A stretch of DNA of 64,000 nt from assembly GCF_963675165.1 (NCBI RefSeq), contig NC_087380.1, positions 6,208,071-6,272,070 on the forward strand. Direction: 5' to 3'. The position numbers and the translations under genes are program-made. This DNA is from Halichondria panicea. Taxonomy: Eukaryota > Porifera > Demospongiae > Suberitida > Halichondriidae. The notes under the pieces are model-generated. The model was not told the origin of the DNA and ran no database searches. It saw only the letters and a list, made by a program, of their open reading frames with translations. Positions 588 to 24,575 of the stretch are shown piece after piece; the first letter of the stretch is position 1; each line of letters starts with the position of its first letter.

Positions 588-2091
588 GTACAGACCAGCT
601 GCCATTTCAGGCTGACCAGCAACCTGACATCTATATTATAGCTAGCTATCTAGCTACGTAGGTACCTGTAAGTGACTGTACTACGTACGTAGACTACGTA
701 CCTTTATAGAGCCCTTAGGCCTATTAGGGAAAGTACTTGAGAGCGCCCTGGAATCGAGGCTAACCCACAATTGCTGTAAATTTTTATTTCGCAAGCATTT
801 GTATAGTGACTGTCTCAAATATTGAGAAGAATTCTCGCACGCATGAATGCATACACAATTATTTATGACATTGTAGCAAATATGGAGTTGCCACGAAATT
901 ACTAGACTCTTAGTTCAGCTTCAGCTTTCAACCGCTGTATCTCAAAGTCTTTATGCTTACAGTGCACGCATTCACCGGAGGTAGGCTTTTGCTTTGGAGA
1001 ATGGACGAAGAAATTTTCTGCAAGGGTGGTAAACATATTTTTCGTGTGGGTGATGGAAGTCCAATGGCAAAGCATGTGGCCTTTGCCGAGGTAGGTCGTT
1101 TCCGTGGAGCAGACACATCAGCTGACACTAGTGGCATTGTGAGGGAAGTTTGTCTTGAACGGCAGTGAGACTTCTGTACTGCACTGGTGGTTTTGACACT
1201 TTCCATGAGAGGTTGATTACCCTTTACAAGGTTTAAAGGTATAGGTGGAAGACTGAGAGATCTGGAGTGAGACTTTTGGCCTTGTTTCACTGCCGACAGT
1301 TGATGGCGCTTACCTGATGACACTCTATTCACGGGTGGTTGTTGATGTGGATCGGGTATCTTTTGAAGAGAATCCATTTGCTTTGCTAATGGTTGCAGTT
1401 CGTGTTGAGTAAGGGGTAGTCTTGTGCAGAGATACTAAATGTATCGGAGAAGCCTGCACTTCCAGATACCAGCTGCGAAACCTCGCCCATGCGGTTGGTG
1501 CTCTCAGGGTCTGGTATACTCTCAAGATGAAGCTATTAAAAAAATTGCAGTATAGATGAGCATGCATGATATAAGGGTTTTACCTCGTTCTGAAAATAGT
1601 CTATCTGAGTGCCTGATACGTCTTGAAGAACCACCATAGGTTGAGTTACTTGTTCAAAGCATGAAAAGCTTTCAATTCCAGAGTCGAAACTTACTCTACT
1701 TTTAATGTCGGCAGCCACTTTTAGGGAGATACGATGTTGTGAGACTGAGGTGACACCTTTCCCTGGTAGCTCCTGAATCATGATAAGGCATCCATATGAT
1801 GGATGGAATGAAATACTCACACAACTTACCTGCACCAGAAACAAATGCATTTCTGTGTAATGGTCCTGAAAAAAGGAATAATTTATGTAAACATGACAAT
1901 ACTCGTTTACATAGTTTTTTCCTTAGTTTGGAACACTAGATTACCAGATTACCGTACAGTGAGACATTTTTGTGAGGTGCAAAATTGAATGTTTTTCGAG
2001 GGCAGAGCAATTAACACGAAATTTAAAACCGGGAAAAACTCCCACGCACTAGCTGGTACCGTCAGGAGCCCATATGGGCTCCTGCATGGTA

Positions 2092-2301
2092 CAGTATAGT
2101 CGGTAATTTTCGGGGGGCAAAACATTCGTGGTTGTGAGCAATATTTAGTCACTTCGTGGATAATATTTTCGTGGTTGCTGCTTGCACTGCAGGTAAAGGT
2201 AGGCAAGGTCGCTTCATTCGTGGGTAAAATATTCATGGTCTGAGCTCCAACCACGAAAACCACGAATATTTTGTCCCCCCCTGAAATTACCAGCTATACA
2301 G
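2092..2301. mobile_element. TA-flanked MITE (pogo/mariner-like)
   Basis: Imperfect terminal inverted repeats start CAGTATAGTCGGTAATTTTC on the left and end GAAATTACCAGCTATACAG on the right, with TA on both sides. The interior carries repeated CACGAATATTTT-type motifs in inverted order. A one-ended relative starts near 20431. It lies in an intron of the decayed type B gene. A 20-bp palindrome (AGGAGCCCATATGGGCTCCT) sits just upstream, near 2064-2083. Confidence 0.6.
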
Positions 2302-2588
2302 TATTTCACATGCAAAGCTATTAGTGGGTGTGGTTTCCTGGCATTGAACCATGAATATTAGAACCCACGAAATTTTATGCTGAGTGCGCTCTGGAGCCAA
2401 TAGCAAAAATGTGTACCTGCGAACATTTCCTGCTACTGCATGTATATGGTTTTACTTATTTCTTTACGTGTTTTAAGGGGAGCACCACCTTTGTAAGGCA
2501 ATGTTGCCCATATGCATATGTGACCCTTTCGACAACCACACGCATAATTAACCCAGGCGCACGGATGCCACAGAGTATAGTAGTCAGT

Positions 2589-2660
2589 CAGTATGCTTGT
2601 CTGTCTGTCTGTCTATCTGTCTGTCTGTCTGTCTGTGAGTGTCTGTCTGTCTGTCTGCAT
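2589..2660. repeat. (TCTG)n microsatellite
   Basis: About 17 tetranucleotide units of TCTG with a few interruptions. The repeat opens a spurious reading frame on each strand, so no gene is called here. Confidence 0.9.
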
Positions 2661-3964
2661 GTCTGTTGTTCTGAGTCTGCTCTGCACCTGGGTGCGATAG
2701 CGCTGCATGTGTTTGTGCCATGGATAGCCTCAACACAACAATGTATAGTAGTTGCAGATTTTGATGTTAAAGCTTCGTTGTCAAATGAAGCGAGCAAACT
2801 AAGAAGCTCGAACCTGCATGATGCTCTAGATGTACACGCGGCTTTGGCGCAAGGCTGTAAACTATGTACACTAAACCCCAAATTAACGCCGGAGGGTTTG
2901 CACACTTCAGTGCTCTAGTTATACTCGTTTTGCTGTTACAGTAATAGTATTTCTTTGAATATTGTTATCATTTATGGACTAGACTAACACACAAACACAT
3001 AAGTCTGCTCGAGTAGCTTCTCCCCTGCACAGATGTGGCTATGAATACAGTTATACCATTATTTTAGCGGCGATTTTCTGACAGTCATGAATATTTATCA
3101 CTATAATATGGACATTGTAATGGCTATTATAGCTAGCATAATTAACATGTGTATAGCAGGATTTTACTTGATAGTCTCTGATGTGACCTCGCCAGAAACA
3201 ATCCCCGATGCGACAATTCATCGCAGTCACGAGAAACCTGTTCACTTCTCTTTTTAGGTCCTCATTTTCGGAGAAACACTGTGGCGGAGATAAAACAGCT
3301 GTTAAATTGCAGATACATATTAAATCTATAACACTTTAATTTTGCATTTGTATTGCATAATAAATTACGTTTTTCAACAATTCTGTCGCAGTCCTTCTGT
3401 GGACAAATAGCCGCTCTGCATTGATGATAATTATTATAGTCATACATTGATTTTAATGATGAAACAACATTTACAAAACCTCACTTTTTGTTTTTCTGCG
3501 CAAAATATATCAATTTTTCAGTGCATGTCTGGCAAAGAGAGTGCCCACAGCTCCTAATCTGCACTGCTTCTTTCAGTATCTTGTTGCATTCCGGACACTG
3601 GTACTGCTGCATCACGCCCACGTACATACTGAATTACATAACTGACATTTACTGTTGACAGGGGTCTTCCCCGGGTAGTCCCCTAATATTTACCTAGATT
3701 ACGTACATGTAAACTGGGGGGCAGCTGATAGGGGTTTTACCCGGGTAGTCCCCTAATACTATTGCATTATCACATTACTTACACCCCATAAGTGCATTCA
3801 GTGGCATTGTTGAGGTTCAGGGTATCTTTAGTGATAATGCACTCCAAACATGGAAGTGTGTGTACAGATTTTGTAAACAAAACAGCAAGCACAAACTCAA
3901 ACTCAAACTCAAACTCCAAATGCATAATACTGGCACTGAAAGGGCATACTTTAAGGTTGTATAG

Positions 3965-5755
3965 TCACAGAGCAATAGAACACTTAATGAATACAGTGTC
4001 CTCAACAATAAAGCCTTGGTTTTTCAGTTCAGTGTGAGACACAAACCTTGGACAGCCTGAAGCAATGTTCATATCAGACTTCGGTTTCTGAAATGAGCTG
4101 CTCATGGGGTCTGGTTGGAAAGTGTCGATGATGTCCCTATTCCCTTTCTGATTGATCAGCTTGAAGGTCACCTTGGATGTGAAAGGCCATTTGAGAATGT
4201 TGTCAAACTCTCCCTTCATGATCACAAAGAACAGCGACATGTGCGTGTTTTTTCCAATACCGTCTCCCAGAATGTAGAGCCTCAAACACATTTTATAGCC
4301 ATATCGTCCTGAAAAAAATGGAAGGCTAAAGATGGATGTGTATTTGCCTGATTGTGCATCGGCCATCCTCTGGCTGAATTGTGGAATTTTCCAGATCATA
4401 GTGCCGTCATGGTTACTATTTTCAATTAGGGATAGTCGAAAATCTCTATCTTCGAACTCTGCATGTTTTGATCGCATTGCTTTCTCCATTTTCACCACTG
4501 TATTTGTAAGGGTGGCAATTTCCTCATCTTTTCGTCTAAAATGGGTAGATATTTTAGTATCGAGCTCCTTAGCAATTTTTGCAAGAGCAGTTGTATTTAA
4601 GAATTCTTGGTCTTCAACTCTTCCTCTAGTCTGACCATGCAAGGAGTGATAACCGAGGTCCTCGCTACGATTGCTACCAGAAACAACAGCATGAATTACA
4701 GGTCCTTTTTTACCAGCTCCATCTTTCTCGACAAGATCGCCACATCGTGAGATGGGCACATTCTGACCAATCATCTCATCAAGATTATCAACGCTTTGGT
4801 GATTCGATCTAACAAGCTTTAATACATCAGCAACGCTCTGAAGATGCTCCAATCCATGATCATTAACGTGTTGCTTTAGCTCTTCCCGTGTCATCTGAAA
4901 ATCAAAGATACAATGTTTTAATTTATAGTCCTATGCTATTACTTACCGTGCGGGTGTAACTGCATCCAAACTCAGCAAGTGGACACTTCATCAATGCCTT
5001 AGGGCAAACTCGTCCATGCGATCCAATTTGGTCAGGAGTCAAGACAACACCACATAGATTGCATTCTTCTGAAAGAAAGTCACACGCTTTGAGATGAGTT
5101 TCCAATTTTGCCAGCCTGCCCTCCCATTGGCATCCCTTCTGTTGGTGAGGGCAACCGACAATCATCCCCTCAATCTCCCTTCTCACAAATCGATCAGGAA
5201 AACACTGCAGAGGAGAGATCAGTAGATATGTAAAATATTATCGTAAAACCTTGATTTAAGGCGACCCTCTAAATAAGCGACACTTGGACATATCGCCCAT
5301 AATTATAGCACCATATAAATTCATTTTTTTGGTGTACATTAAAACTTTACTTTTGCAAAACAAAAAAGTGTTGCTTTAAATCGAGGTTTTACGGTAGTTG
5401 CTTCCCACAGACAAAAATTGCTCTGAGGCTTATCAATCAGTTGCTCTTAGTGTGGACCTACCTCAGCTCCTTCTTCGTCCGATTTCAGAAACTCTTCACA
5501 GTCAAGTTTGGGGCATTTCGGTAAGCTGTAAAAGTCGATACAAATAATGTGATGACAGTTCTAAAGCAAATATGTTGCGGCAGGCTAGGCTACTTACCTC
5601 TCTGCTAACAGCTGAACAGCACAGCATTCACACAGCCAGTGTCCACATATTGGCTGCACAGCATCCTTCAGGAGATGGTTGCAGTAGGGGCACTGGTACT
5701 TATCAAATAGTGCTGGAGTTTTGGATGTGCCTAGAGAGACTTTGTGTCCTGGCAT
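3965..5755 (-). CDS. TRAF-family protein, type A gene 1: RING, TRAF zinc fingers, coiled coil, MATH (469 aa)
   Basis: Exons 5598-5755, 5462-5525, 4947-5204 and 3965-4894, all with GT-AG borders and matching phases. The RING has C22-x2-C25, C37-x-H39-x2-C42-x2-C45 and a final C58-x4-C63. Zinc fingers follow at about 75-175 (CPHQQKGC, CNLCGVV, CPLAEFGC), then a variable linker with the motif EKDGAG, a coiled coil (about 260-315) and MATH (about 320-465, with MIWKIPQF and FFSGRYGYKMCLRLYI). By family it is a trimeric adaptor/E3 ligase acting under immune or death receptors in the cytoplasm. The C-terminus ends CSIAL instead of the CSIDCSSIKHP of two sister genes. The RING start is the only in-frame ATG ahead of the Cys ladder. 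Confidence 0.88.
5241..5394. mobile_element. TA-flanked MITE in TRAF intron
   Basis: Inverted repeats TCGTAAAACCTTGATTTAAG (left) and, read inward from the right, CCGTAAAACCTCGATTTAAA, with TA on each side. It is about 150 bp with no coding content and lies in intron 2 of the type A gene at 3965-5755. The sister genes lack it at this position, so it is a later insertion. Confidence 0.6.
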
Positions 5756-6300: not shown

Positions 6301-9300
6301 TCAAAATGTCTTGAGACGGCCACGAAAGGGTACCGGTACCTTGTTCTCCTTGTTGCGATTGCAAATACAGTTCTTAATCATATCAACGAGAATAATCTTT
6401 AAAGTCTTATTCTCAGCCATCAAAACATCAACAACTTCTGTGTTCTGGGTAGCCAAACTTTTTATCATCTTTTTATTATCCTTGCACTGAGAACATTCAT
6501 CAACTACAGGAGGCACAGCAGCATATGGGCAGAATAACATCTTTCTAGCTGGTGGTGCCTTAGAGGGAGGTACGTATGGTGTAGCTTGGGTTGAGGCAGG
6601 GACCATGAGAGAGGAGTTAGTGATTGGTGTCAGAGTGGACATTGCCTGCTGGCAGTTAGGAGAGAGTGGGGTCTGAAAAAGGTTAGCTGGAGCCATAGGG
6701 GGAAACGAAGAGAGTTTTCCTCGACGCTTTACAGGCTTTGGACTAGATGGACTTGCTCCAACGGAATCGGTGAACTTTAGGTCTCGTTCCTTCACAGGCG
6801 AAGAGAGTGGTGTAAGGCTGAGTGAATTCAATTGAGGGGTCAGCTGAGTTGATTCAATAGGTGGCAGTGCAGTATTTCCAATGACCATTTGATCTGGATT
6901 CCTCTCTTGGTTGGCAGCCTGTTGGATTGGCAAATGTTCACTCTCAGGCGTGATCTGAAAGCGTATCTACATGTATATACAAGGTAAACATAATATTTCC
7001 TTTTACTCTATCAGACACACCTTAGGACCTGCAGTGTGAGCATTTAGAGTCTGAGACCTGTCATCCAAGAAACATTTTAATCCAAGTTTGTTGTTCGAGG
7101 AAGCTGCACCATTAGCCTGGATCCTCTTTAATGAGTCAGCACTCACGCGCTTAACATAGCTAGCACTACCAGTAATTTGTTCAATGAGAGCTGCCCGCTG
7201 AAGTAGACTCTGTCTTAGCTGCTGGGCAGTTGAATCCAGACTTTCTTTGTGTTGAATCTCCACAATAATGTGCGATGCTTTTTTCTTTGAGACGGGCTTG
7301 TAGATAAAAAAAAAACATAATAGACTTGACTCAATTTAAAACTCAGTATTGACGTTTTTGAGCAATTCAACCCATATAAGTCTATGAAGTTGTATACACT
7401 TACCTCATAAATTTCAGGTGGATGCTCTCCAATGTGGTCCTGGAATTCAATAAACATATAATATATTATATTCGATTTTATATCGTTGTCAAGGTTACAA
7501 GCGTGTAATAAAAGTCATTATACCATTATTACATGGTCGCGTAAGGGGTTGTCGCGATATGATAAAACATGCATATAATAACATAAGAATCCTTGTGTTT
7601 TATGCAATAATTATACAGGCAACTCACCCTTGGGGCTGTGCCCCCGGGCTGTATATTTCATAAAACACTCAGTCTCATGATCATGCTTTGTATCACGTAC
7701 TTGTCAAAGTAATCCCCCCCTACCAGGGATAGGTGGGGATGACTTGAAATTGCTTCCCTAACTATAAGGGACTTAAGAGTTGGCTAATTCTCACATAACC
7801 CCCATGTTGTACTAGGGGCTACTAGGCTATTGGGGATTAGACCAAATAACATGCCCAAAGGTAGGGGATTAGATCATGTGCTAATCCTCACCTATCTCCA
7901 GTATGGGGGGTGGGGCATTAGTTTGACAAGTACATAAAGTAATAACCATATAATAAAAGTTATCCGTTTCTTCCGCATTAAAATTACACGGTCACGTAGC
8001 ATAATTTGGTAAGGGGTTGTTGTGATATAACCGTATAGTGAGTAAATTTGGTGAATGAGGCAATTGAACTGATTTTTAATTTGACGATCATGCTGCATGG
8101 CACTACTGGGACCGAGTGGCAATTAGCTAAAACATTTTCAATCAGTTTATCCGCTATACGATATAGCTGATTTTTCATGTTGTATAATAATTATTATAAT
8201 GAAAGCACCGCGGGTGCTGATGCCTCGGTGGAGATGCCAAAGCTACATAACATAAAGCTACTAAAGTCTATTTGTGTTGAATTCAACCTTCATTCCTTGT
8301 TAAAAGCGCTTCTATCTATAATTATGCTGTAGAGCTGATAAGTTAGCATTTCCATGTAGAAGTCCCAGGCATACTTGTCCACCACATAAAGCATAAAAAT
8401 AAACCCTTAATTGACCACATAATTTCCAGGGCTGAACTCAACGCAAATATACTTTAATAACTTTTATACACACATTTTATAGTTATCATGATAAACATTT
8501 TTGATCATGATTGTTGTTAAAAACATTCGATGCCAAAAGTTTAAGTTTAAAATTAATGGCTGCATCAGTAGAGCCTTGCAGCTTTCTTCTCACTCTTGCA
8601 GCTACCATGGAATAGCTAGCATTCTAGTGCAGAGCTAACTACTAAGTAAAGTAGCAACACTCGGTGAACAAGTTTTGCTACGCACTCTTCATTCCAGGCC
8701 AAGTAAACAAAACTAGATATAACTCGAGAACGAAGCATTATTTTGCAAATCCACGAATTAAAATCCAAGAAAACAGCCTACACACACAGACACAGACACA
8801 CAGACAAACACACTACCGTATATCTCGCTTGCGCACGCGCACTGAGGCATAATAAATATGCAATATACAGGCAGCTCGCCCTCAAACTTGTGACTATTAT
8901 TGCATACATTGCATACAACACTCAACCTCGTGCTGTATCTATTACGTACACTACTGAAAGCTTCACTGAGAAGGATCACATAAATAGAACTCACAGTGTA
9001 TGCTGTGTAGGTTCCATTCCAGGTGCAGCCATTAATAACGCACGACACATGCGACTGGCGTATCTGTTCACGCAAATCGACATCATTGGAATACTATAAA
9101 AAGAGTTGAAACAATCAATTAAGGTCAGCCAGATTTCCTGTGAATCATTCTACCTACCTGTAACCTTTTCTCGCAGTTTTTTATAGGGCATTGTGCTTGT
9201 CTGTACAGGAAAACAAACACATGTTGTTCAGACCATTCATCATACAATCACTACATATTACATATAGACTACATAGAGTAGCTAGCTTGCTTTTATATAT

Positions 9301-9534
9301 AATTATTATACCAAAAAAAGGATAAGGCACTTATTCTTACGAAAGCAACTAGCTATCTGAGCTGCATGCTCACCTTTTCAATGCTCTAGCCGTGTATTCA
9401 GTTTTGTCTACACAGTCTGCACAAAGATGATGTCCACAGCTTGTCTTGAAAGCATCTTTTAACAGGTTGTTGCAATTTTCACGTTGACAGAAAAAGCCTT
9501 CATTATCAAACAGTTCTCTAGGGTCGACAGACAT
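6301..9534 (-). CDS. Type B RING/zinc-finger protein without MATH (422 aa), gene 2
   Basis: Six exons in phase: 9374-9534, 9158-9200, 8995-9093, 7404-7439, 7021-7296, 6301-6954. The N-terminus has a RING-like ladder (CQRENC, SCGHHLCADC, then CPIKNC from exon 2), so both the first and last Cys pairs are spaced x4. A single zinc finger is split by an intron (CVINGCTWNG, then DHIGEH), giving C-x4-C-x11-H-x3-H. A predicted coiled coil follows (SLDSTAQQLRQSLLQRAALI), then a Ser/Pro-rich segment with repeated SPxP motifs and a C-terminal module DECSQCKDN ... NCICNRNKEN. There is no MATH domain. It alternates with type A genes on the same strand. The function is not known; a RING partner or regulator of the neighbouring TRAFs is an inference. 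Confidence 0.8.
7697..7933. mobile_element. Fold-back element in intron 3 of type B gene
   Basis: Ends are GTACTTGTCAAA and TTTGACAAGTAC. The interior is rich in related G/C runs in inverted order (for example CCCCCCTACCAGGGATAGGT on the left and ACCTATCTCCAGTATGGGGG on the right). No coding content. It lies in the long intron 7440-8994. Confidence 0.55.
8190..8860 (-). repeat. Interspersed repeat, copy 1 of 3 (reverse orientation)
   Basis: Shares blocks with 30208-30480 and 35160-35560, which run the other way: a CG-rich GCGCACGCAAGCGAGGTATA start, a GTCTGTCTG tract, then GGATTTGCAAAATAATGC and ACTTGGAATGCCATTGC-like blocks, ending near a CCACCGAGGCATCA motif. No reading frame is conserved between copies. 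A further block at about 8330-8470 (GGCATACTTGTC, CATAAAGCATAAA) recurs at 19845-19980. Confidence 0.6.
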
Positions 9535-10447
9535 TCTCCCTGTCAATTTCCTTTTATCGACGTGACATAAGATAAGGCATTACCTAGTGCAGCCAAATTT
9601 AGATAGATCTTATAATTATGTTATTCATTGCAAATTTGATTTCACAGTTTATGCATGGTTGCGTAGCCTCGATTCCAGGCCGCACTGAATGGCCTTGTGA
9701 AGGAGGGAGTTTCCCGGGGGACACCCCTAGGTTGTGTACATGTTGTGGGTATCTCCTTATGGTGCATTAGTCTCATGAATCAGCCGCCGTTCTTTTGGAA
9801 CGGTGGTTCCAAAAGAACGGCGGCTGATTCATGTTCCAAAAGAACGGCGGCTGATTCATGAGACTAATGGTGCATGTGAATAAGGAATGCAATCATGTTA
9901 CAAATGTACACTACGTAGCCCTACTATTGTTAATGTACCTTGCCACATAAACACAAAGTGGCCCAACACAAAGTTTAGCGCCACTGCATAACCAGCCCCA
10001 CTCTTTTGCTTGTGGCCACCGTGGCACAAACATAGAGCCACTCTTTTAGCTTATCGCCGTTGTTGCTAGTGCCACTTTCCCCCCCAACATGAACTAGCAC
10101 CATTCTTTTTGTGGCTCTAAGACTTTGAAACAAATAGCATGGTATCTTCCCTTCATTACTCCTGATGCAATAATTATAGCAATAATTATAGCACAATGTT
10201 CGACAAGACAAACACAAACTAACTGACAGGGTGCACATCATGATTAAACTGTTCTATATACATGGTAGAAGTGAAATAAAAATTCTGTACGATAAAAAGC
10301 ATATTTATTTTGACCCCACCAGAGTCCAACCATTTGGCTGGCATGCACGGCGTGCATCAGGCGAGCCAGGCGAGCAACACTCCCAAGCACCCTCCATGCA
10401 GGCAACTATATAGCCTGTAGGAGTTCTTATTACCTACCAGGTAATGA
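9535..10447. other. Intergenic spacer with fold-back hairpin
   Basis: No gene seen. It contains a perfect hairpin at 9766-9876 and blocks shared with 15254-15967 (for example GGGACACCCCTAGGTTGTGT and the GGTAATGACTATGGGTGCTT end), showing that the spacer was duplicated together with the type A gene next to it. Confidence 0.6.
9766..9876. repeat. Palindromic hairpin with duplicated arm
   Basis: The arm ATTAGTCTCATGAATCAGCC continuing to CCGCCGTTCTTTTGGAA is answered by TTCCAAAAGAACGGCGGCTG twice in succession, the second ending CATGAGACTAAT. The same GGCGGCTGATTCATGA core recurs alone near 20262. Likely the end of a DNA transposon joined tail to tail. Confidence 0.65.
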
Positions 10448-12093
10448 CTATGGGTGCTTGATGGAACTGCAATCAATGGAGCACTTGATAAACACTGTGT
10501 CATCAGCAATGAAACCACCGTTTTTCAATTCAGTGTTAGATGCAAATCGAGGGCAACCACTTGCAATGTTCATATCGGATTTTGGCTTTTGGAAAGAGCT
10601 GCTCATGGGGTCTGGCTGGAAAGTGTCGATAATGTCCCTATTCCCTGTCTGGTTGATCAGCTTGAAGGTCACCTTGGATGTGAAAGGCCATTTTAGAATG
10701 TTGTCAAAATCTCCCTTCATGATCACAAAGAACAGCGACATGTGAGTGTTCTTTCCAATACCGTCTCCCAGAATGTAGAGCTTCAAACATATTTTATAGC
10801 CATATCGCCCTGAAAAAAATGGAAGGCTGAAGATCGAGGTGTACTTCCCTGATTGTGCATCAGCCATCCTCTGACTGAATTGTGGGATCTTCCAGATCAT
10901 ATTACCATCATGGTTACTGTTTTCAATTAGCGACAATCGGAAATCTCTATCTTCGAACTCCGCATGTTTTGATCGCATTGCTCTCTCCATTTTCACCACC
11001 GTATTCGTAAGGGTGGTAATTTCCTCGTCTTTTCGGCTAAAATGGGTAGATATTTTAGTATTGAGCTCCTTAGCAATTTTTGCAAGAGCAGTTGTATTTA
11101 AGAATTCTTGGTCTTCAACTCTTCCTCTAGTCTGACCAGAGTAATGACCTGTGTCCTCGCTTTGATTGTTACCAGAAACAACAGCATGAATTACAGCTAA
11201 TCCTTTTTCACCAGCTCCATCTTTCTCGACAAGATCACCACATTGTGAGAGAAATACATTCTGACCAATCGCCTCATCGAGATTATGGTGATTCGATCTA
11301 ACAAGCTTTAATGCACCAGCAACGCTCTGAAGATGCTCCAATCCATGATCACTAACGTGTTGCTTTAGCTCTTTCCGTGTCATCTGAAAATCAAGATACA
11401 ATAGATAATTAGTGCACTGATTTTTTTTGCTATTACTTACCGTGCGAGTGTGACGACATCCAAACTCAACAAGTGGACATTTCATCAATGCCTTAGGGCA
11501 AACTCGTCCATGCGATCCAATTTGGTCAGGGGACAAGATAACACCACATAGATTGCATTCTTCTGAAAGAAAGTTGCACGCTTTGAGGTGAGCTGCCAAT
11601 TTTGCCAGCCTGTCCTCCCAGTGGCACCCCTTCAGTTGATGAGGGCAACCGACAATCATCCCCTCAACCTCCCTCCTCACAAATCGATCAGGAAAATACT
11701 GCAGAGGAGAGATCAGTAGGTAAAACATTCAGCTAGTTGCTGCCTCAGTGACCAAACTTGTTCTTAGACTATCAAAATTCAGTTGCTCTAGTTTTATAGC
11801 GTGGACCTACCTCAGCTCCTTCTTCGTCTGATTTCAGAAACTCTTGACAGTCAAGTTTGGGGCATTTCGGTAAACTGTAGAAGTAAATACAAATAATATG
11901 ACAGTTCTAAAACACATACATTGGGGGCTACTTACCTCTCTGCTAACAGCTGAACAGCACAGCATTCACACAGCCAGTGTCCACATATTGGCTGCACAGC
12001 ATCCTTCAGGAGATGGTTGCAGGAGGGGCACTGGTACTTGTCAAACAGTGCTGGATTTTTGGATGTACCTCGAGATACTTTGTGTCTTAGCAT
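10448..12093 (-). CDS. TRAF-family protein, type A gene 2: RING, TRAF zinc fingers, coiled coil, MATH (471 aa)
   Basis: Exons 11936-12093, 11811-11874, 11441-11698 and 10448-11383, same phases as the other type A genes. RING Cys/His ladder CPSCNHLLKDAVQPICGHWL, final pair CPKLDC; zinc fingers CPHQLKGC, CNLCGVI, CPLVEFGC; coiled coil with KIAKELNTKISTHFSRKDEE; MATH with MIWKIPQF and ending CSIDCSSIKHP. By family it is an oligomeric adaptor and ubiquitin ligase under cell-surface receptors. Both flanks and coding DNA are close to the gene at 15968-17685, so this is a recent tandem copy. The linker lacks several residues found in its sisters (for example after RSNHHNLDEAIGQN). Confidence 0.88.
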
Positions 12094-12727: not shown

Positions 12728-15253
12728 TCAAAATGTTTTGAGACGGCCTCGAAAAGATTCCTCGTTCTCCTTGCTGCGATTGCAATGACAGTTCTTAATC
12801 AAATCAAAGAAAGTTTTCTTCATTTTAATCTGAGTCGTCAAAACTTTGAACATTTCTGTACTCTGAGCAGTCAAGATTCTCATACTCTCTTTATTATCCT
12901 TACACTCAGAACATTCATCAACTACAGGTGGCAGAATGCGCTTCTTTGGTGTGGCATCTGGACCAAACGACATCTTTCTAGCCGCTGCTTTCAGAAGGGC
13001 AGATGGTGGTACCTTAGAGGGAGGTATGTCTGGCGTAGCTTGGGGTGGGGCAGGGAACATGGCAGAGGAGTTAGTGATTGGTGTCAGAGGCGATGGAGTC
13101 TGAAAAGGGTTCCCGGGAACCATGGGGGGTTTTCCACGGCACTTTACAGGCTTTAGTTTGGTCGGACTAGACGGACTTGCTGCAGCGGAATCGGTGAACT
13201 TTGGTCCTCGTTCCCTCACAGGTGAAAAGAGAGGGGTAACCGTAAAGCTGCCAAGTGAATTCAATTGGGAGGTCAGTTGAGTTGATTCAATAGGTAGAAG
13301 GGGCTGGGGAGCAGTATAGGCAGTGCTTCCAATGACCATTTGATCTTGAGTGCTCTCTCGATTGGCAGCTTGTTGAACTGGCAAATTTTCCCTCTCTGGC
13401 CTGATCCCAAAGTGTATCTATATACAAGGTAAACAAAATGATTACATTTCCTCTTACTCAATCAGACACACCTTAGTATCTGCTCTCTGAGCATTCAGGG
13501 TGTGAGACCTTTCATCCAAGAACATTTCTATACCTGCTCGCTTCAAGCTGTTGTTCGAGGAAGCTGCACCATTAGCCTGGATCCTCTTTAATGAGTCAGC
13601 ACTCACGCGCTCAACATAGCCAGCACTACCAGCAATTCGTTCAATGCTATTGGCCCGCTGAAGTAGACTGTTAGCATTCTGTCTTAGCTGCTGGGCAGTT
13701 GAATCCAGGCTTTCTTTGTCTTTAATCTTCACAAGAATGTGCGATGCTTTCTTCTTTGAGACTGGCTGTAGATAATATAATTTTATTTAAGATTAAAAAC
13801 CCAGTATTGATGCTTTTTGATGGTTAATTTGCCGCCCTTTCGCACTAGCTTTTCAGATTGAAAGCTAAAGCTTTGCACATCTAATGATTGAGACACACCT
13901 TAAAAACGTGCATGGGCGTATACATTTTTCGCGTGCTCTCAGCACCCTCCTACTGCATTTCCTAGAAACGCCACTGATATGGGATTAACAGCACGAGTAA
14001 CAAGCAATGGCAAGGCTTAGCCGAGTGCTAATTGCTAGTACTTGTTAAGAGTGCTACTAATCCCTTATCGCACGAGTAACCAGATTTCTGTAGTTTTATT
14101 AACATTTTCAGCCGTGGCCGTTATTTGAACACAATACGTCGTCATTGACGACGTGCACTGGATGTGATACAGGGTTATAATTGCTGTACACTAATAGCAC
14201 ATCATACGCTTATGGATTATCATTGTCCAAAAAGCAAAATGACAAATTATGGCCCCCGATGGACAATTTGGATTTAGTTAAAGGTCACCAACTATCAATT
14301 TAGGTACATAGCATAGAAATTATGGTGCCCCCTTTAAAATTTGAGTTTAAGCATTTTGCCCCCTCTTGGAAATATTCTGAAATGAACCCTGCAATGCTAC
14401 AGTGAGTTTCGTAAGTCTCTATGAAGTATACACAAACTATTGTCACTTACCTCACAAATTTCAGGCGGGTGCTCGTCAATGTGGTCCTGCAATGAATAAA
14501 ACAATGATCTGTATTCTACTGAAGTTTGACTCACAGTGTAAGCTGTGTAGGTTCCACTCCAGTTGCAGCCATTAATTAAGCACGACACATGCGACTGGCG
14601 TATCTGTTCACACAAATGCTCATCACTGGAATACTATAAAAAGAGTTGAAACGATCAATTAAGGTCAGTCGAATTTCCTGTAAATTATTCTACCCACCTG
14701 AAACCTTTTCTCACAGTCTTTTATAGGGCATAGGGCTTGTCTGTACAGGAACAAATGAAAATGCACATAAAACAATCACTATAATTATCTAGATATAGCT
14801 CTATCGTCTTTCTTCTATACAGCGCCCTCTAATAGAAGTTCACAAATTAGAAAATAGATTATAACACGGCCTTTAATTGAGGCTCTACATACAACTGATC
14901 TATGAAAGCCTTGTGGAAACAGCTATATACTAGTACTCTACGTTCTATTGCTAAGTGCCACTCCAATATCAGTACCAATTTGTGCGCCAATGGAAAATCA
15001 TTCACTGTATAAGACGGTATATGTAGGTGATTATACCAACACAAGGTCTGCACTTAACAAAACAAAACAGACAGTTGCTGTCTGAGCTGCATGCTCACCT
15101 TTTCAATGCTGTAGCCGTGTATTCAGTTTCTCCTACACAGTCTGCACAAAGATAATGTCCACAGCTTGTCTTGAAAGCATCTTTCAACAGGTTGCTGCAA
15201 TTTTCACGTTGACAGAAAAAGTCTTCATTATAATCAAAGAGTTCTCTAGACAT
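12728..15253 (-). CDS. Type B RING/zinc-finger protein without MATH (about 434 aa), gene 3
   Basis: Exons 15099-15253, 14698-14740, 14535-14633, 14451-14486, 13472-13765 and 12728 to about 13405. RING ladder CQRENCSN, SCGHYLCADC, CPIKDC; split zinc finger CLINGCNWSG / DHIDEH; coiled coil SLDSTAQQLRQNANSLLQRA; Ser/Pro-rich tail; C-terminal Cys module DECSECKDN ... NCHCNRSKEN and the shared end RGRLKTF. Oddity: the acceptor before the last exon, TTTCAG in the sister gene, reads TTTGGG here. The next AG (ATCAG) would shift the frame, while an AG 12 bases further in (CCAGAG) keeps it. So the last exon may be shortened by four codons or mis-spliced. Function unknown. Confidence 0.75.
13766..14450. 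other. Intron 4 of type B gene 3
   Basis: Long intron between the 12-codon zinc-finger exon and the coiled-coil exon. I see no exon, RNA gene or element with clear ends. Its length differs strongly from the same intron in gene 2 (107 bp, 7297-7403), so it gained DNA after duplication. Confidence 0.5.
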
Positions 15254-15967
15254 ATCTTGTTCTTTATCTAGAACTATTCAAGGCATTACATCTTCTGTTT
15301 ACCTGCAGCCAAATTTAGATTAGATCTTGATCTAGATTTAGATTTTTATGGGAGTTTCCCAGGGGACACCCCTAGGTTGTGTACATGGGTGGGTATCTCC
15401 TTATGGTATGCGGTATGAATACGGAATGGCATTGTATGTTTTCAATCATGTCTAGTACACTAACCCCAAATTATCACATTGCAGCACAAACACGAAGTTC
15501 AGCGCCACTCTTTTTACATAGCCAGCCCCACTCTTTTGTTTGTGGCCGCACGAACAAATGATTTTCAGTGCCCAGAAACTGTAGCTAGCGCCACTTCCCC
15601 CCCCCCACGCCAAGAAATTTCTGCTAGCACCACGTACTCTTTTTTGTGGTTCTAAGACCACTTTTTTTTATTGCGCTTTTAGTATGGTACCTTCAGGTAC
15701 TTCTGATGCAATGTAGCAGAATTGTTGACAAGACAAACACAAACTGACAGGCTAGGGTGCACATCATTGATTAAATTGTTCCACATGGTAGAGGTAAAAT
15801 AAAAATGCTGCACTACAAAAAAATATTAATTTTGACCCAATAGAGTCCAACCACTCTTTGGCATGCACGGCATGCACCAGGCGAGCAACACTCCCTCCCA
15901 AGCACCCTCCACACAGGCAATTATATTAGCCTGTATATAGGAGTTCTTATTACCTACCAGGTAATGA
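15254..15967. other. Intergenic spacer duplicated from 9535-10447
   Basis: Shares long blocks with the spacer ahead of the type A gene at 10448, including the terminal stretch ending in the MATH stop codon. The fold-back hairpin at 9766-9876 is absent here, so that element was inserted or lost after duplication. Confidence 0.6.
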
Positions 15968-17685
15968 CTATGGGTGCTTGATGGAACTGCAGTCAATGGA
16001 GCACTTGATAAACACGGTGTCATCAGCAATGAAACCACCGTTTTTCAATTCAGTGTGAGAAGCAAATCGAGGGCAACCACTTGCAATGTTCATATCCGAT
16101 TTTGGCTTTTGGAAAGAGCTGCTCATGGGGTCTGGTTGGAAAGTGTCAATGATGTCCCTATTCCCCATCTGGTTGATCAGCTTGAACGTCACCTTGGATG
16201 TAAAAGGCCATTGTAGAATGTTGTCAAACTCTCCCTTCATGATCACAAAGAACAGCGACATGTGAGTGTTCTTTCCAATACCGTCTCCCAGAATGTACAA
16301 TCGAAGGCACATTTTGTAACCATATCGTCCTGAAAAAAATGGAAGGCTGAAGATGGATGTGTATTTGCCTGATTGTGCATCGGCCATCCTCTGGCTGAAC
16401 TGTGGGATCTTCCAGATCATATTACCATCATGGTTACTGTTTTCAATTAGCGATAGTCGAAAATCTCTATCTTCGAAGTCTGCATGTTTTGATTGCATTG
16501 ATCTCTCCATTTTCATCACTTTGTTCTTAAGGGTGGCTATTTCCTCGTCTTTTCGTCTCGAAACAGTTGTTATTTTAGTATCAAGCTCAATATTGAGCTT
16601 CTTAGCCATTTGTGCAAGAGCAGTTGCATGTAAAAATTCCTGATCTTCAACTCGTCCTCCAGTCAGGCCGTGCATAGAGTGATAACCAGGGTCCTCAACA
16701 ACAGCTTGAAATACAGGTCCTTTTTTCTCGCTACTTCCTTTGCTGTAAAGGGATTGACTGTTTTCACCAGCTCCATCCCTCTCGACAAAATCGCCACATC
16801 GTGAGAGAGACACATTCTGACAAGTTGCATCATCAAGACTATCACCACTTTGGTAATTCGGTATAAGAAGCTTTAATGCATCAGCAACGCTCTGAAGATG
16901 CTCCAATCCATGATCATTAACATGTTGCTTTAGCTCTTGCCTTGTCATCTGAAAATCAAAGATACAATGTCGTAATTTATAGCCCTATGATTATTCTTGC
17001 TATTATACTTACTGTGCGGGTGTGGCGACATCCATACTCAGCAAGTGGGCACTTCATCGATGCCTTAGGGCAAACTCGTCCATGCGATCCAATTTGGTCA
17101 GCAGTCAAGACAACACCACATAGATTGCATTCTTCTGAAAGAAAGTCACACGCTTTGAGATGAGTTTCCAATTTTGCCAGCCTGTCCTCCCATTGGCATC
17201 CCTTCTGTTGATGAGGGCAACTGACAATCATTCCCTCAACCTCCCTTCTCACAAATCGATCAGGAAAACACTGCAGAGCAGAGGAGAGATCAGTAGTTAA
17301 AACATTTGCTAGTTCCTGCTCAGTGCTCAGTGACCAATTTGTTCTTAAAATTCAGTTGCTCTTAGTGTACATGTACGTGGACCTACCTCAGCTCCTTCTT
17401 CGTCTGACTTCAGAAATTCTTGACAGTCAACTTTGGGGCATTTCGGTAAACTGTAACATGATAAAATGTGATGATGACAGTTCTAAAACACATACATTGG
17501 CCTAGATCTACTTACCTCTCTGCTAACAGCTCATCAGCACAGCATTCACACAGCCAGTGACCACATATTGGCTGCACAGCATCCTTCAGGAGATGGTTGC
17601 AGTAGGGGCACTGGTACTTGTCAAACAGTGTTGGATCCTTGGATGTGCCTCGAGAAACGTTGTGTATGTGTCTAGGCACAGGCAT
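15968..17685 (-). CDS. TRAF-family protein, type A gene 3: RING, TRAF zinc fingers, coiled coil, MATH (490 aa)
   Basis: Exons 17516-17685, 17387-17450, 17013-17270 and 15968-16948. N-terminus MPVPRHIHNVSRGTSKDP is four residues longer than in its sisters. RING CPYCNHLLKDAVQPICGHWL, with the final pair CPKVDC; zinc fingers CPHQQKGC, CNLCGVV, CPLAEYGC; linker with ERDGAGEN and a further EKKGPVFQAV block; coiled coil; MATH ending CSIDCSSIKHP. Role by family: adaptor/E3 ligase. The MATH exon is nearly identical to those of the other type A genes while the linker differs by insertions and substitutions. Confidence 0.88.
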
Positions 17686-18631: not shown

Positions 18632-18677
18632 ATAGGTATCGAGCTGAAAGAGCAAAAAATTAATGCATGGTTATTGC

Positions 18678-18985
18678 TAGACTGGTGGCGACAGCCCCTG
18701 GCGTGCGTAGCGCGAGGGACTGGCAAACTGTCTATCAGTCACTCGTCTCAGCTGCAACGAGCATTGCAGCCTATCAGATTGCTCAACGTCATATTAGCCC
18801 TGTAATTGTACACTTCAGGGGATTCAGTGCATTCCATAGTAGCTGAATCTCATAGCAAAATTTAACCACATTATCTATAACGATATTCATGTTTAGTAGT
18901 GTCATACGATCTATTACACTTCCGCTGAGACGAGTGACTGATAGGCAGTTTGCCAGTCGCTCGGGCGGCTGTCGCCGCCAGTCTA
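18678..18985. mobile_element. Second Mutator-like fold-back MITE (308 bp) with 9-bp target-site duplication
   Basis: Begins TAGACTGGTGGCGACAGCC and ends with its near-complement GGCTGTCGCCGCCAGTCTA. Inverted repeats of about 70 bp hold the block GACTGGCAAACTGTCTATCA. Direct repeat GGTTATTGC at 18669-18677 and 18986-18994. The terminal TAGACT and the 9-bp duplication match the element at 297-587, so both were probably mobilised by the same transposase. Confidence 0.85.
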
Positions 18986-21654
18986 GGTTATTGCTACATT
19001 ATGAGTACAAATTAAGTATTGTATGCAATGAGTTGCCTGCAGTTGTTTGCAAATTTGCTCGTTGCTTACAACCATTGCATACAGTGTACAGTGGCAACGA
19101 ATTGCCTGAATGTTGCCTGGTGTATGCCTTAAGGACATAGAAATGAATAACGCAGAAAAAAAAATTGCATGAGTATACTATTAGACAGGTGTAGAAAAAA
19201 TTGCATAATAGCTATAGTAGAGACAGCTAGCTGTCTGATTACGTGGATGGGAGTTGTGAATGGCTGAGCCAGGATAAAAGGAATCATTACAACGTTACAA
19301 ACACACGGCTAAACCCCCTTCTACGGTATACTACCCCAGCATAGTGAATGAATATACATAATATGAATATATGAATATACATGTATACTGCATTGCAGTT
19401 GCTAACAACAAGAATGTAACTAGCCTCGATTCCAGAGACTAGAATGTAACCAAATACTGCAATCTGATAAAGAATAAATACAAGATTGGTTTGCAACTCG
19501 ACCTTGGAAAGTTCCTACGTTAAATTATCTACACAGTGTGTCGAATGCTATATTTGAAGCTGGCATTCATGTCTATAATGATAATAATAGCATGCAACTA
19601 TAGGCACATATAATTATACATATCATAACAAATTACAGTGTGAGCTCTTTGCACAGCAGCAAAAACTTTTTACCGTAATGACCTTAATTATAATTATTTC
19701 AGAATCTATAGAAAGCAACGTTAAGAAAACAGTGCTTCACCTTCGAAAATTGCCAAGTTTCTAAAGTCGAAGGTTTACTTAATGGTTTTGTGATTTTGTC
19801 TTAGCTTCGAAGTTTCATATACCATTGGATTCCGAGTATATGCTGTAGAGTTTCAACTTAGCATTTTCTATAGAAGTCCTTGGCATACTTGTCAACCACA
19901 TAAAGCATAAATGAAGACATAATTGACTACAAAACTTCCGGGGGCAAACTCAACGCAAATATCCTGTCTCATTAGCAGTTAAAGCAGTCAATGAAGTACG
20001 TGTCTAGTTCGCTTAAACAACTCATTTTTGTGTCCACACACACATAGGCCGCCCTGATAACTATTTCTTTAATCTTGAAAAGTGTGCCTAATTCTCATAA
20101 AATTATTCTCTGATTAATTCCCAACAAAATTAATATGACAAATTAAAGTTAAGACATAGAAATAAACACAACACACAACTGACTCAAGACATTTAATATA
20201 TAATTATCATGATTCTCAGTTCGCTGGCTTGAACTGATCCATAATATTCACTTAAAAGAAGGGCGGCTGATTCATGAATTAATATTCACCTTCAGCCATT
20301 TTTTGCCATGAAAACATTGTTATGCAAAACTTAATGTAATGATCTTTACCATTATTATTCCATCAGAGCCTAACCAAAACGCACACAAATCCCTCTACCC
20401 CTGCTGCGCACAATGCACGAAAAATTATACTGTATAGCCGGTAATTTTTGGGGGGCAAAACTTTCATGAACAATAGTCACTTTGTGGGATAATATTTTCG
20501 TGGTTGCTGCCTGCACTGCATGCAGGCATAATTATGAATCTCGGGGCACTTGTACAAGTCAGGGGGCATGCATAAAAGTGGATATATATATGAGCATTTT
20601 GAGCATTTTAACACAAAGGCACACAATAATAATTAAGATTGAATGAGCCACACCTCACTCCGGGTTATCTTCCACAAGAAGGGGCGGCTAATAAAGTAAC
20701 AAACTAACTAAATGGTCTAACAGGTGGCAGCTCAAGTTTAATGTAAGACCATGATGTGTACTTCCCAAAAAAAACCATCACCAACTATCAACTATAATTA
20801 TAAATACACAACAATATTCCAACCTTGGTTGGAATTGTGGTAGTTATTAGTTGTTGATATAGGTTCAAACTTTCAAGTACCTTGAATTGACATAGAGACC
20901 AAGTAACCAAGCGAACCAAATTTTTAAACTTGCTGAGGCGTAACATGCATAAATCATCTGAGCTAGCCAAATCAAGAGCCTTCACAGCCCTTGTACTCCC
21001 ATGCACACCTGCATGGAGTTATCAGCCCCAGTCTGGTTGCCCCACTTGAAGAGATATAATAAGCTTATAGAAAACATGCTTATATATTAATTTTCTTTCA
21101 AAAAAGAGCAGCATGATGGGTTGAGGCCAATTGGAACAAAGAGAATCACAGCTGGAGCAAATCTTATGATGAATGCCGGCTCTCACTGTCATGGTTGACG
21201 CTTGAGAATAGAAGAAATCTCCTCTCCTACTGCCAAACGTACAAGACATTCCACAATATGGACTGCGTGTGCTTCAAGAACCATTGCATGTATAACCAGT
21301 CAACAAGGAGTCACACCACCTATATCACTACTCTGCAAGCACTGCTACAGATACTCATACAATGTAAATAGCTGTTTCCAGTGTAACGTTTTACCCTCAA
21401 ACATTGTAAGCTGCACTATATAGGTAAGCTGCACTATATACCTCTTTAAGTCAGCATCAGCACTTAGACGTCACCTCATGCAAACGATATATTTCTGTGT
21501 CTTTTTTTGTGCAACGGGGGAGCACCTGGAGAGGCTGTAAAGCCTATTTGTGTGACCCTTTCACAGGGAAAATATTTAAATTTCCTGTTACAGTGCATGC
21601 CTTAAAATCTGCACATTTCCTGAAAATGTAAGTTGTTCTGCAACCTACTTACAA

Positions 21655-21761
21655 AGGATAGTGCAAAATGTTCTGTATAGTTTCCTTTACCAAACCTGAA
21701 GAAGTTCAGGACATGTGTAAGACTCATAAAGGAAAGTCTACAGGAAATTTTGCACTATCCT
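21655..21761. mobile_element. Small inverted-repeat element
   Basis: AGGATAGTGCAAAAT on the left and ATTTTGCACTATCCT on the right, the homology continuing inward through TATAGTTTCCTTTA / TAAAGGAAAGTCTA. About 107 bp, no coding content. Confidence 0.55.
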
Positions 21762-22103
21762 GAAAGTATAGAAAATTTATATGTTTTTCCCATTTGGGTA
21801 AAGATTGATTGAAACCACATGTGGCTTTTAATCGTGATTTGTACTAGAACAAGTGAGGATGCCTTAATTACCCAAAACTTCCAACCGCACAGGTCAAAGT
21901 TCAATTGCGTGTTACCTGCCAACAAGCACTGGCTATTTTTAGCTGCCAAGAGTCTGATTCGGGCACTCTAGGTTATAGATATTGCACCAGCTAATTAATT
22001 AAGGGACTAATTGGGTTAGTTTAATCTCTCTTACAGACTATAACTCAAGCCTGTGCCTGAAAGCTTAGTTCAACATACAGCTGGCTTCGAGACTTGTATT
22101 TCC

Positions 22104-22303
22104 GCTTCTGAGCAAAATTGGCAAAAATAAATTTGAAAAATAACGTTTTCAGCTATAGGCTTGAACCACTTGACCTTAGCTAATTAAGGTCACTAATTGG
22201 ATTTCTCTAACCTTACTTCAAGCCTAGTTTTTAGTGTCTGTAAGTTTAAAACGTTATTTTTCAGGGGGGTCAAATTTTATTTTCGCCAATTTTGCTCAGA
22301 AGC
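22104..22303. mobile_element. Fold-back element with adjacent partial copy
   Basis: GCTTCTGAGCAAAATTGGC on the left and GCCAATTTTGCTCAGAAGC on the right, about 200 bp. The interior has inverted AAAAATAACGTTTT and AAAACGTTATTTTT blocks. Related pieces continue to about 22560. Confidence 0.55.
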
Positions 22304-22685
22304 TTAAGCAGGATACAATCAAAAGTCTTGCTCTAGCTCTTGTACTAGCCTCGATATCATGAGCGGCTTGTTCTCGAGGTCCTGGCACAGCTGGCTTTGA
22401 GACTTGTATCTCTCTTCTTCTGGCAAAAATAAAATTTGACCCCCCCCCCCCCCTGAAAATAAAGTAAAAACTAAGCTTAAAGTAGAGAAGTTTGAATAAA
22501 TCCAATTAGTGACCTTAATTAGCTAAGGTCAAGTGGTTCCAGCCTTGAGGTAGTCTGCATGAGAAGTTTGCAATTTTTACTTGGTCTAGCCTCCTTTGAA
22601 CCCCCAATAAATGTGCAGGTAACTTTATATACACTCCGAAATATATACTAACTTACTAACTATATAGTAGAGTCTGATACGGCAG

Positions 22686-24069
22686 CTAGGGATGCTTAAC
22701 AGTGGCACAGTCAATGGAGCACTTGACAAATACAGTGTCCTCAACAATAAAGCCGCCATTCTTTAGTTCAGTGTGAGACACGAACCTTGGACAGCCTGAA
22801 GCAATGTTCATATCAGACTTTGGCTTTTGGAAAGAGCTGCTCATGGGGTCTGGTTGGAAAGTGTCGATGATGTCCCTATTCCCTGTCTGGTTGATCAGCT
22901 TGAAGGTCACCTTGGATGTGAAAGGCCATTGTAGAATGTTGTCAAATTCTCCCTTCATGATCACGAAGAACAGCGACATGTGAGTGTTCTTTCCAATACC
23001 GTCTCCCAGAATGTACAATCGAAGGCACATTTTGTAGCCGTATCGTCCTGTATAGAACGGAAGGCTAAAAATCGAGGTGTATCTGCCACTCTGTGCATCG
23101 GCCATCCTCTGACTGAACTGTGGGATTTTCCAGATCATATTGCCGTCATGGTTACTGTTTTCAATTAGCGACAATCGGAAATCTCTATCTTCGAACTCTG
23201 CATGTTTGGATCGCATTGCTTTCTCAAGCTTTGTCATGTTGTTTCGCAAGGTAGTTATTTCTTCATCTTTTCGTTTTAGGTCAGCATTAAATTTTGCCTC
23301 CAATACTGAAGTAGAATTTTTCAAAGTAGTAGCAGAAGAATTCCTGAAAGTAGTAGCAGCGTGCACTTCAAGTGCATTCCTGTCAGGTAGGCCGCCATAT
23401 GTTGATCCGTCCGTAGTTACTCCTGGACCATCTGCAAATACTGCTTGATAAGCTTTTTTCTCTCCAGCATAATCTCTCTCTAGCCCATCATAAGTTGTTC
23501 TTCGAACGTTTGGGAGAACTGCTCGAAATTCCTTCGATTTCACCACTTTCGGTACTGCACAATCTCTCTCAATTCCATCTGACATTCGACCAAAATCTTG
23601 ACCGGTTGCATTGCTGTCGTCGTCAGCTTGGGGGATAAGCGGTTTAATATGATGCATGGTTTCCTTTTTAAAAAGCTGTAAGGTATCAACCAGCATTTCG
23701 AAATGTTCCAACGAATGAGTAGCAATATGTTTCCTCAGCTCCTCTCTGGTTATCTGCATGAAGATAAGCCGTGTTAAATTACTATTACATTGTAGTTAGT
23801 TAGTACCTTTACCTGTTGAGTATGTTGGCATCCAAACTCTGCAAGTGGGCATTTCATTAATGCCTTTGGACAGACCAGTTTGTGAGATTCTATTTGGTCT
23901 ACTGGTAGGATTTTTCCGCAACACTGGCAACCTAGGATGGCAAATGAGCAGATATTTCGGTGATCATCAAGTTTCACCAGCCTGTCCTCCCACTGGCACC
24001 CCTCCGGGCGGTTGCTGCAGCTTACTATCAGCCCCTCGATCTCACGCCGAACAAACCGATCCGGAAAGT

Positions 24070-24111
<42 letters not shown>

Positions 24112-24575
24112 TTACATGTGTGAATGTGCACGTGTACATGACCTGTCATGGTCTGACAATAGAATATCCTCTCTAAAAGCTATTTTACTACAAAATGAAA
24201 ACTTACCTCTGCTCCCTCATTTGCGTCTGCGTTAAGATCTTCAAGGCAGTCAGGCCGAGGACACTTTGGTGAGCTAGTATAGTTGTGAGGGGTGAAAAAT
24301 GGGTGTATGGGTGTATATGAACGTGCTCTACGATTACAAAACTATCCAGCTATTAACTGTTAACTAGTTTGAGCTGTAGGGGGTAGTTCTATGCATTATC
24401 TATACAATAGAACTTACGAAGACTCAAGCAGTTCGTCAGCACAGCTTTCACATAACCAGTGACCGCAAACAGGTTGGACGGCATCCTTCAACAGTAGTTT
24501 GCAGTGAGGGCACTGGTACTTTTCGAACACACCTGGGTCCTTGACATTGCTGCGAGCTACACCATGTCCTGGCAT
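22686..24575 (-). CDS. TRAF-family protein, type A gene 4, most diverged: RING, TRAF zinc fingers, coiled coil, MATH (516 aa)
   Basis: Exons 24418-24575, 24207-24273, 23813-24070 and 22686-23753; phases agree. RING CPHCKLLLKDAVQPVCGHWL with a last pair CPRPDC; zinc fingers CSNRPEGC, CQCCGKI, CPLAEFGC; then a long linker, a coiled coil (KFNADLKRKDEEITTLRN) and a MATH domain nearly identical to its sisters. The linker holds the sister motif twice (DGIERDCA and DGLERDYAGEKKAYQAV), so it was lengthened by internal duplication. The acceptor before exon 3 is a (CA)n run ending AAACAG. By family it is a cytoplasmic receptor adaptor/E3 ligase. The RING and zinc fingers differ more than the MATH domain does. 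Confidence 0.88.
24074..24110. repeat. (GT)n microsatellite at a splice acceptor
   Basis: Runs of GT on the plus strand, (CA)n on the coding strand, ending directly in the AAACAG acceptor of TRAF exon 3 at 24070/24071. Confidence 0.9.

Follow-up and report, generated by a model that had tools for sequence, protein, structure and literature searches.

A tandem array of TRAF genes in a sponge, interleaved with a MATH-less sister family

In a 64,000-nucleotide stretch of the Halichondria panicea genome (hereafter the window), TRAF genes alternate with genes of a second, related type, which raises the question of whether the two encode proteins that work together. A first-pass annotation of the window had described genes of type A, with a RING, TRAF fingers and a MATH domain, and genes of type B, with a similar N-terminus and no MATH domain, and had proposed that the two are members of one duplicating unit and act as a pair. 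The order that it gave for 902..24575, B, A, B, A, B, A, A with every gene on the minus strand, holds within these limits (B1, A1, B2, A2, B3, A3, A4). However, the array is longer, since B0 and a further copy, B-1, lie to the left. The first exon of B0, which encodes the first half of the RING, is at 44..213 (minus strand, start at 213), and its exons 2-6 fall outside the window, to the left on the same contig, at C4:6203405-6208051 (minus strand, window positions -19 to -4665). B-1 is a broken, partial B copy 12.3-13.5 kb left of the window, and the full order is B-1, B0, B1, A1, B2, A2, B3, A3, A4. All of these are predicted genes, modelled by eye from sequence and homology.

The type A genes are TRAFs as described. 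A1 (3965..5755, 469 amino acids), A2 (10448..12093, 471 amino acids), A3 (15968..17685, 490 amino acids) and A4 (22686..24575, 516 amino acids) each have four exons on the minus strand with intron phases 2,0,0, and encode the N-terminal RING and TRAF fingers typical of the TRAF family, followed by a MATH domain that exceeds the cut-off for Pfam PF21355 in all four. For A2, searched as a single open frame reading through a short intron, the MATH match has an E-value of 3.3e-42 and the best PDB match is TRAF3 (5.1e-56); its match to PF02176 (9.5e-5, 23.5 bits) is below the cut-off of 27. A heptad-like stretch, a candidate TRAF-N coiled coil, lies upstream of MATH in A1, as judged from a simple count only. 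Sequence divergence marks A4 as an older paralog, with dS saturated against A1 and A3 upstream of MATH.

The type B layout is borne out in B2 (6301..9534, 426 amino acids) and B3 (12728..15253, 438 amino acids), both on the minus strand: a RING-like start, one zinc finger (C-x4-C...H-x3-H), a coil-like exon, a Ser/Pro-rich tail and a C-terminal Cys module (C-x2-C-K...C-x-C). The heptad-like character of the coil exon comes from a simple count only and is suggestive at most. Each gene has six exons that are open throughout and joined by GT-AG introns (B2: 9534-9374, 9200-9158, 9093-8995, 7439-7404, 7296-7021 and 6966-6301; B3: 15253-15099, 14740-14698, 14633-14535, 14486-14451, 13765-13472 and 13417-12728). 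B0 shares this architecture, with the same intron phases (2,0,0,0,0), exons 3 and 4 of 99 and 36 nucleotides, and 40% protein identity to B2 or B3, calculated on a B0 sequence without exon 4. In all three genes the only finger is split by an intron, its last two ligands falling in exon 4, and type B genes do not carry the several TRAF fingers that characterise the family. The remaining copies are less regular. B1, a divergent type B gene at about 902..3627 (minus strand), has five exons that splice in frame (3627-3485, 3415-3369, 3298-3168, 1865-1830 and 1772-1584), with a second intron of phase 1 rather than 0 (its first two phases are 2 then 1), and a tail at 902-1536 spread over three frames, one of which ends in a C-x2-C-K stretch, so that B1 may not be intact. 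The fifth intron of B0 requires a GC donor. B-1 contains frame breaks, and a search for its RING found none.

Profile searches agree with the claimed absence of MATH. Pfam found no MATH domain in B2 or B0, and across the searched stretch of C4 MATH matches occur at the four A genes only. No Pfam domain passed its threshold in either B2 or B0, the RING matches being sub-threshold, and a profile search of the B C-terminus against the PDB returned nothing significant (best E-value 0.39). The B0 query for Pfam and the PDB omitted four exon-2 residues and exon 4, and the B2 query for Pfam and the genome searches omitted four exon-6 residues. The RING-finger region of B0 best matches a TRAF2 structure (5.5e-12) and also matches TRAF6 structures; PDB 7l3l, a TRAF5-TRAF6 RING heterodimer, is among the structure matches listed.

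The shared N-terminal layout reflects common descent. Type B is a sister family of type A, judging by the sequence of RING and finger and by the phases of the first two introns, which are 2,0 in A1-A4 as well as in B0, B2 and B3. In a tree of 97 columns with long branches, whose A rows extend to C8 and to other places on C4, A (eight rows) and B (four rows) split in 92% of 200 bootstrap trees, with support of 71/94; once two long rows, B1 and L038, are dropped, the split appears in 100% of trees, with support of 97/95. The separation of A and B together from other TRAF rows has support of just 83/89. The structure matches of B0, the alignment and the tree together identify the B N-terminus as a TRAF-type RING with its first finger, and the C-x4-C spacing of that finger in B0, B2 and B3 is the same as in TRAF2 and TRAF6. 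Two simpler readings of type B were rejected. One is that B arose by recent truncation of the A genes next to it, which does not fit, given that the A genes, with those of C8 and other parts of C4, form a separate side of the tree, and that the first finger is C-x6-C in A versus C-x4-C in B. The other is that the B models are an artefact of open frames, which does not fit either, since exon phases are constant over three genes.

We then considered the origin of the alternation. The spacer between A3 and B3 (15254..15967, minus strand) is homologous to, and collinear with, that between A2 and B2 (9535..10447, minus strand; best E-value 7e-56). The B-to-A spacers, when compared, gave no match at 1e-3, nor does the spacer between A1 and B1 match the duplicated pair. 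Synonymous divergence is alike in the two gene pairs (dS 0.267 for A2-A3 versus 0.254 for B2-B3). Because the A-to-B spacers are homologous, the B-to-A spacers unmatched and the dS values alike, the alternation stems mainly from a single tandem duplication, in which some 5-6 kb running from A to B were copied (A3-B3, A2-B2). An A-B segment did therefore duplicate as a unit, as had been proposed; however, this is no evidence of partnership, because co-duplication follows from A and B adjoining. B-1, B0 and B1 are consecutive, with no A between them. The alternating order by itself does not show that A and B work as a pair.

Type B genes appear to be local. Genome-wide matches to the B coil and tail, with the B0 query lacking exon 4, are confined to C4:6194587-6221841, which is this cluster. 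The genome holds very many TRAF genes. In 70 kb of a related array on C8 there was no B gene, and all six RING matches fall in MATH-bearing genes. An array on C14 is too divergent for the RING queries at an E-value of 1e-3 and gave weak RING-like matches at 0.012. At C6:839495-840394, the one such frame examined combines a RING with zf-TRAF, and MATH was not found in the 4 kb covered. Pattern searches for relatives of the B C-terminus gave 16 matches in prokaryote genomes and 24 in viral contigs, none of which was confirmed. Among the matches listed for the open literature, the titles and opening lines of abstracts contain no report of an array of MATH-less TRAF paralogs.

The proposal that B heterodimerises with its neighbouring A through RING and linker, and so blocks or tunes it, draws on the kinship of the two families, the single duplication of an A-B segment and a precedent. 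TRAF RINGs can indeed heterodimerise: as described in PMC5702613, TRAF5 and TRAF6 do so, a linker-helix Arg is part of the TRAF RING dimer interface, and a TRAF6 mutant in this Arg still pairs with TRAF5. The Arg is kept in A1-A4, B0 and B1, and is Lys in two aligned C8 genes. However, both alternating copies, B2 and B3, carry Glu in its place, and a Ser where F-P-D has its Phe. The same paper describes a matching TRAF5 Arg mutant that did not recover activity on mixing. In addition, the duplicated unit supplies no A partner for B0 or B1, and the C8 sister array showed no B gene. We thus consider a dedicated pair unlikely. It is quite unlikely that B2 and B3 are instead heterodimer-only RING subunits, in which Glu and Ser would stop self-pairing and allow capping of A, with Arg facing Glu, such that receptor-free half-dimers tune the local TRAF repertoire. 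A third possibility is that B genes are TRAF duplicates decaying under relaxed constraint, as the partial B-1, the three-frame tail of B1, the GC donor of B0 and a dN/dS of 0.92 in the B2-B3 coil exon could suggest. B does evolve faster than A (dN/dS 0.54 versus 0.16-0.28), but the whole-protein B2-B3 value of 0.54 is below 1 (synonymous versus non-synonymous Fisher p 0.0004), and six open exons with constant phases persist in B0, B2 and B3 at 40% identity, so decay is very unlikely.

We favour the explanation that a single TRAF-derived lineage, arranged in tandem, split into sister families. A retains RING, fingers and MATH. B retains the RING and first finger, but its other fingers and MATH have given way to a coil-like exon, a Ser/Pro tail and a Cys module, all of them new; duplication of one A-to-B segment produced most of the alternation. 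This structural and evolutionary part is highly probable. We infer that B, lacking MATH, is unable to dock on receptor tails as TRAFs are known to do. Its likeliest role is that of an auxiliary factor that joins TRAF complexes in trans, rather than of a dedicated partner of the adjoining A, making contact through RING and linker in B0 and B1, or through coil and tail. The RING/linker route looks weak for B2 and B3, since the linker Arg and the Phe are missing, and a role for coil and tail would be read from composition alone, because B2 and B0 have no Pfam match over cut-off and no significant PDB match was obtained. This functional part is tentative, somewhat short of an even chance, and the explanation as a whole, of B as auxiliary TRAF-derived proteins in a tandem array, comes close to one. 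It is also possible, if well short of probable, that B proteins work independently, as RING/finger adaptors or ligases that serve their own clients via the new tail and adjoin A by tandem duplication only. Their C-terminus shows nothing of A, the duplicated unit does not include B-1, B0 or B1, and the frame on C6 offers another MATH-less RING/TRAF-finger layout. As regards a ligase, however, the Ile72/Leu74 pair with which TRAF6 contacts its E2 is absent in both families (Gly/Asn in B0, Asn/Asn in B2, and Tyr, Ser or His with Asn or Lys in A1-A4), and TRAF6-like, Ubc13-type activity is therefore not predicted for B alone.

Several known proteins come close to A or B. The A genes resemble TRAF3 and TRAF2 in RING, TRAF fingers and MATH, but differ from TRAF2 and TRAF6 in their C-x6-C first finger. 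B0 is closest to TRAF2 in RING and first finger, whereas B lacks further fingers and MATH and ends in a C-terminus with no significant Pfam or PDB match. RING plus a TRAF-type finger without MATH also describes TRAF7 and RNF151/RNF41-type proteins, and some of these have a coiled coil; TRAF7 carries WD40 repeats, and none is known to have the tail of B. Another shortened TRAF, TRAF1, retains MATH. B is its reverse, with a RING and no MATH. TRAF1 is RING-less and joins TRAF2 in 1:2 complexes, according to PMC5702613. The TRAF5-TRAF6 heterodimer described there offers a precedent for RING/linker pairing between TRAF paralogs, but both of its partners have the linker Arg that B2 and B3 lack.

The array shows how a lineage with a very large TRAF repertoire produces new MATH-less paralogs: the old RING/finger module stays, and a new tail takes the place of the end that binds receptors. 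Should B bind A, the TRAF array would have given rise to its own natural inhibitor or tuner, the reverse of TRAF1. The locus also cautions that one duplication can yield an alternating order in a tandem array. Elsewhere, the RING and finger exons of a gene at C8:5920723 are of type A, with no MATH match in the 6 kb covered there, and the 70 kb of the C8 array contain one extra MATH piece, a relic.

On the evidence of its sequence, B is a family of predicted MATH-less TRAF paralogs with a new C-terminus. The family layout is a RING, one finger, a coil-like exon and a Ser/Pro-rich tail with a Cys module. Its members (B0-B3, plus a broken partial copy, B-1) are interleaved with four TRAF genes that have RING, TRAF fingers and MATH (A1-A4), in the order B-1, B0, B1, A1, B2, A2, B3, A3, A4. 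The A genes, all on the minus strand, have four exons with intron phases 2,0,0 (A1, 3965-5755; A2, 10448-12093; A3, 15968-17685; A4, 22686-24575). B2 (6301-9534) and B3 (12728-15253), also on the minus strand, have six exons with phases 2,0,0,0,0, and all 10 of their introns are GT-AG. The type B gene B0 starts at 213 on the minus strand and extends left beyond the window; the donor of its intron 5 would be GC, and its 36-nt exon 4 has an H-x3-H-P-P pattern that, within a 36-nt AG-GT exon, appeared in none of 2000 shuffles of the letters of the region, the pattern having been picked post hoc from the exon itself. Exons 1-5 of B1, likewise on the minus strand, splice in frame with a phase 1 intron 2, and its tail is spread over three frames. 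B-1 (contig C4:6194587-6195790, minus strand) is a partial copy of the B0 coil and tail with frame breaks, in which no RING was found; a copy of exon 4 is located about 6.5 kb upstream of it. B0 intron 3 contains a 485-bp direct repeat (99.6% identical), situated on C4 roughly 0.6-1.6 kb beyond the left edge of the window (L024, L025).

The first-pass annotation had described A and B as sharing an N-terminal RING/finger layout and differing in their C-termini. A relation through this region is borne out in that the two form sister groups with shared phases; the spacing of the first finger differs. In A1-A4, B0, B2 and B3, the first intron interrupts the RING in phase 2, and the second, in phase 0, precedes the first finger. 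We built a tree of 17 rows (8 A, four of these being genes elsewhere in the genome; 4 B; 5 others), with row L038 entered without its second exon. A and B were each set off as one side of a branch, with support 71/94 and recovery in 92% of the 200 bootstrap trees; together they stood apart from the five remaining rows (83/89). The tree program gave a long-branch warning; with the long rows B1 and L038 removed, the A/B split had support 97/95 and a bootstrap of 100%. The first finger is C-x6-C in A but C-x4-C in B0, B2 and B3, as in TRAF2 and TRAF6. The tree and the finger spacing thus rule out that B is a recent shortened copy of the adjoining A genes.

The alternating cluster described in the first-pass annotation is present, but its order comes largely from one duplicated A-to-B segment. 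The A3-B3 spacer (714 bases) aligns collinearly with the A2-B2 spacer (913 bases) over five blocks, the best at E 7e-56, whereas the B3-A2 and B2-A1 spacers do not match at E 1e-3, the A1-B1 spacer matches no other spacer compared, and sequences upstream of A3 and A2 do not match at E 1e-4. With similar dS for A2-A3 (0.267) and B2-B3 (0.254), a single tandem duplication of the A-to-B segment accounts for A3-B3-A2-B2. A1 is an additional A copy, whose dS to A2 upstream of MATH (0.14) is smaller than that of A3-A2 (0.24). Within MATH, however, A1-A2 dS is 0.79, while A1-A4 dS is 0.65 in MATH and saturated upstream of it. These mismatches suggest gene conversion or exon exchange among the MATH exons of A1-A4 (3965-24575).

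Although B0 has only 40% protein identity to B2 or B3, with synonymous sites saturated, all three genes share their exon phases and have exons 3 and 4 of constant length. Between B2 and B3, dN is 0.137 and dN/dS 0.54, with changes at 58 of 269 synonymous and 119 of 952 non-synonymous sites (p 0.0004). Taken part by part, RING and finger have a ratio of 0.50, the tail 0.48 and the coil 0.92, so constraint on the coil is not clear for this pair. A gene pairs have ratios of 0.16-0.28 (n=5 pairs).

In searches of this one genome, the B2 query gave 20 matches at E <=1, the six that cover coil or tail all lying at C4:6195575-6221841, and the B0 query gave 54 at E <=5, those to coil or tail lying at C4:6194587-6221841 save one on contig C8 (6147566; query 50-146, chiefly RING end and finger, with an internal stop). 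Relatives of the B C-terminus were not found in prokaryote and viral contigs, which carries little weight for an animal family. In 70 kb of a related TRAF array on C8, all six RING matches are in genes with MATH, and one extra MATH piece is a relic.

That B works with its neighbouring A through RING dimers, as had been proposed, is possible but not favoured. The alignment of the A2 MATH with TRAF3 is full-length and covers R-x-Y, GDG and SSS, stretches that we take to be receptor-tail contacts; the Arg of R-x-Y is Lys in A2 and Arg in the remaining A genes. In the F-P-D motif, whose Phe presumably has a role in RING dimers, Ser replaces Phe in B2 and B3. Stable RING dimers of TRAF5 and TRAF6 need a linker-helix Arg, and RING heterodimers occur (PMC5702613). 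We assigned this Arg by alignment, as the R/K-R-E-I/V column at which TRAF2 and TRAF6 both have Arg; it is Arg in A1-A4, B0 and B1, Lys in two aligned C8 genes and Glu in B2 and B3. Canonical RING pairing is thus plausible for B0 and less so for B2 and B3. A heterodimer-only role of the B2 and B3 RINGs would be compatible with the TRAF6 Arg mutant, which retains TRAF5 pairing, but is not favoured; the TRAF5 Arg mutant gave no rescue in the matching test (PMC5702613). In the alignment, the TRAF6 E2-contact pair is conserved in neither family.

The genome (131.5 Mb, 39 contigs), in which the window spans C4:6208071-6272070, has at least 150 matches to TRAF MATH (PF21355; 150 scored among 317 candidates), the actual total probably being higher, and at least 150 to zf-TRAF (150 scored among 677 candidates). 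A large TRAF set is in itself already known, since enrichment of TRAF domain-like domains is reported for two sponges, Stylissa carteri and Amphimedon (PMC4772301), and the LPS-responsive genes of Halichondria include some annotated as TRAFs (PMC8242945). L041 (C8:5919501-5925500) has RING and finger exons of A type and no MATH match within the 6 kb, and is a decayed or incomplete TRAF. A dense zf-TRAF array lies at C6:0.84-1.26 Mb; the one frame examined there (839495-840394, in L042, C6:838001-842000) encodes RING and zf-TRAF, with no MATH match across the 4 kb. Elsewhere in the window, an AAA ATPase exon, presumably p97-like, lies on the minus strand at 26930-27355 (PF00004, 4.4e-12), and four consecutive beta/gamma-crystallin ORFs lie on the plus strand at 35899-52574 (PF00030, E 2.5e-12 to 2.2e-25).
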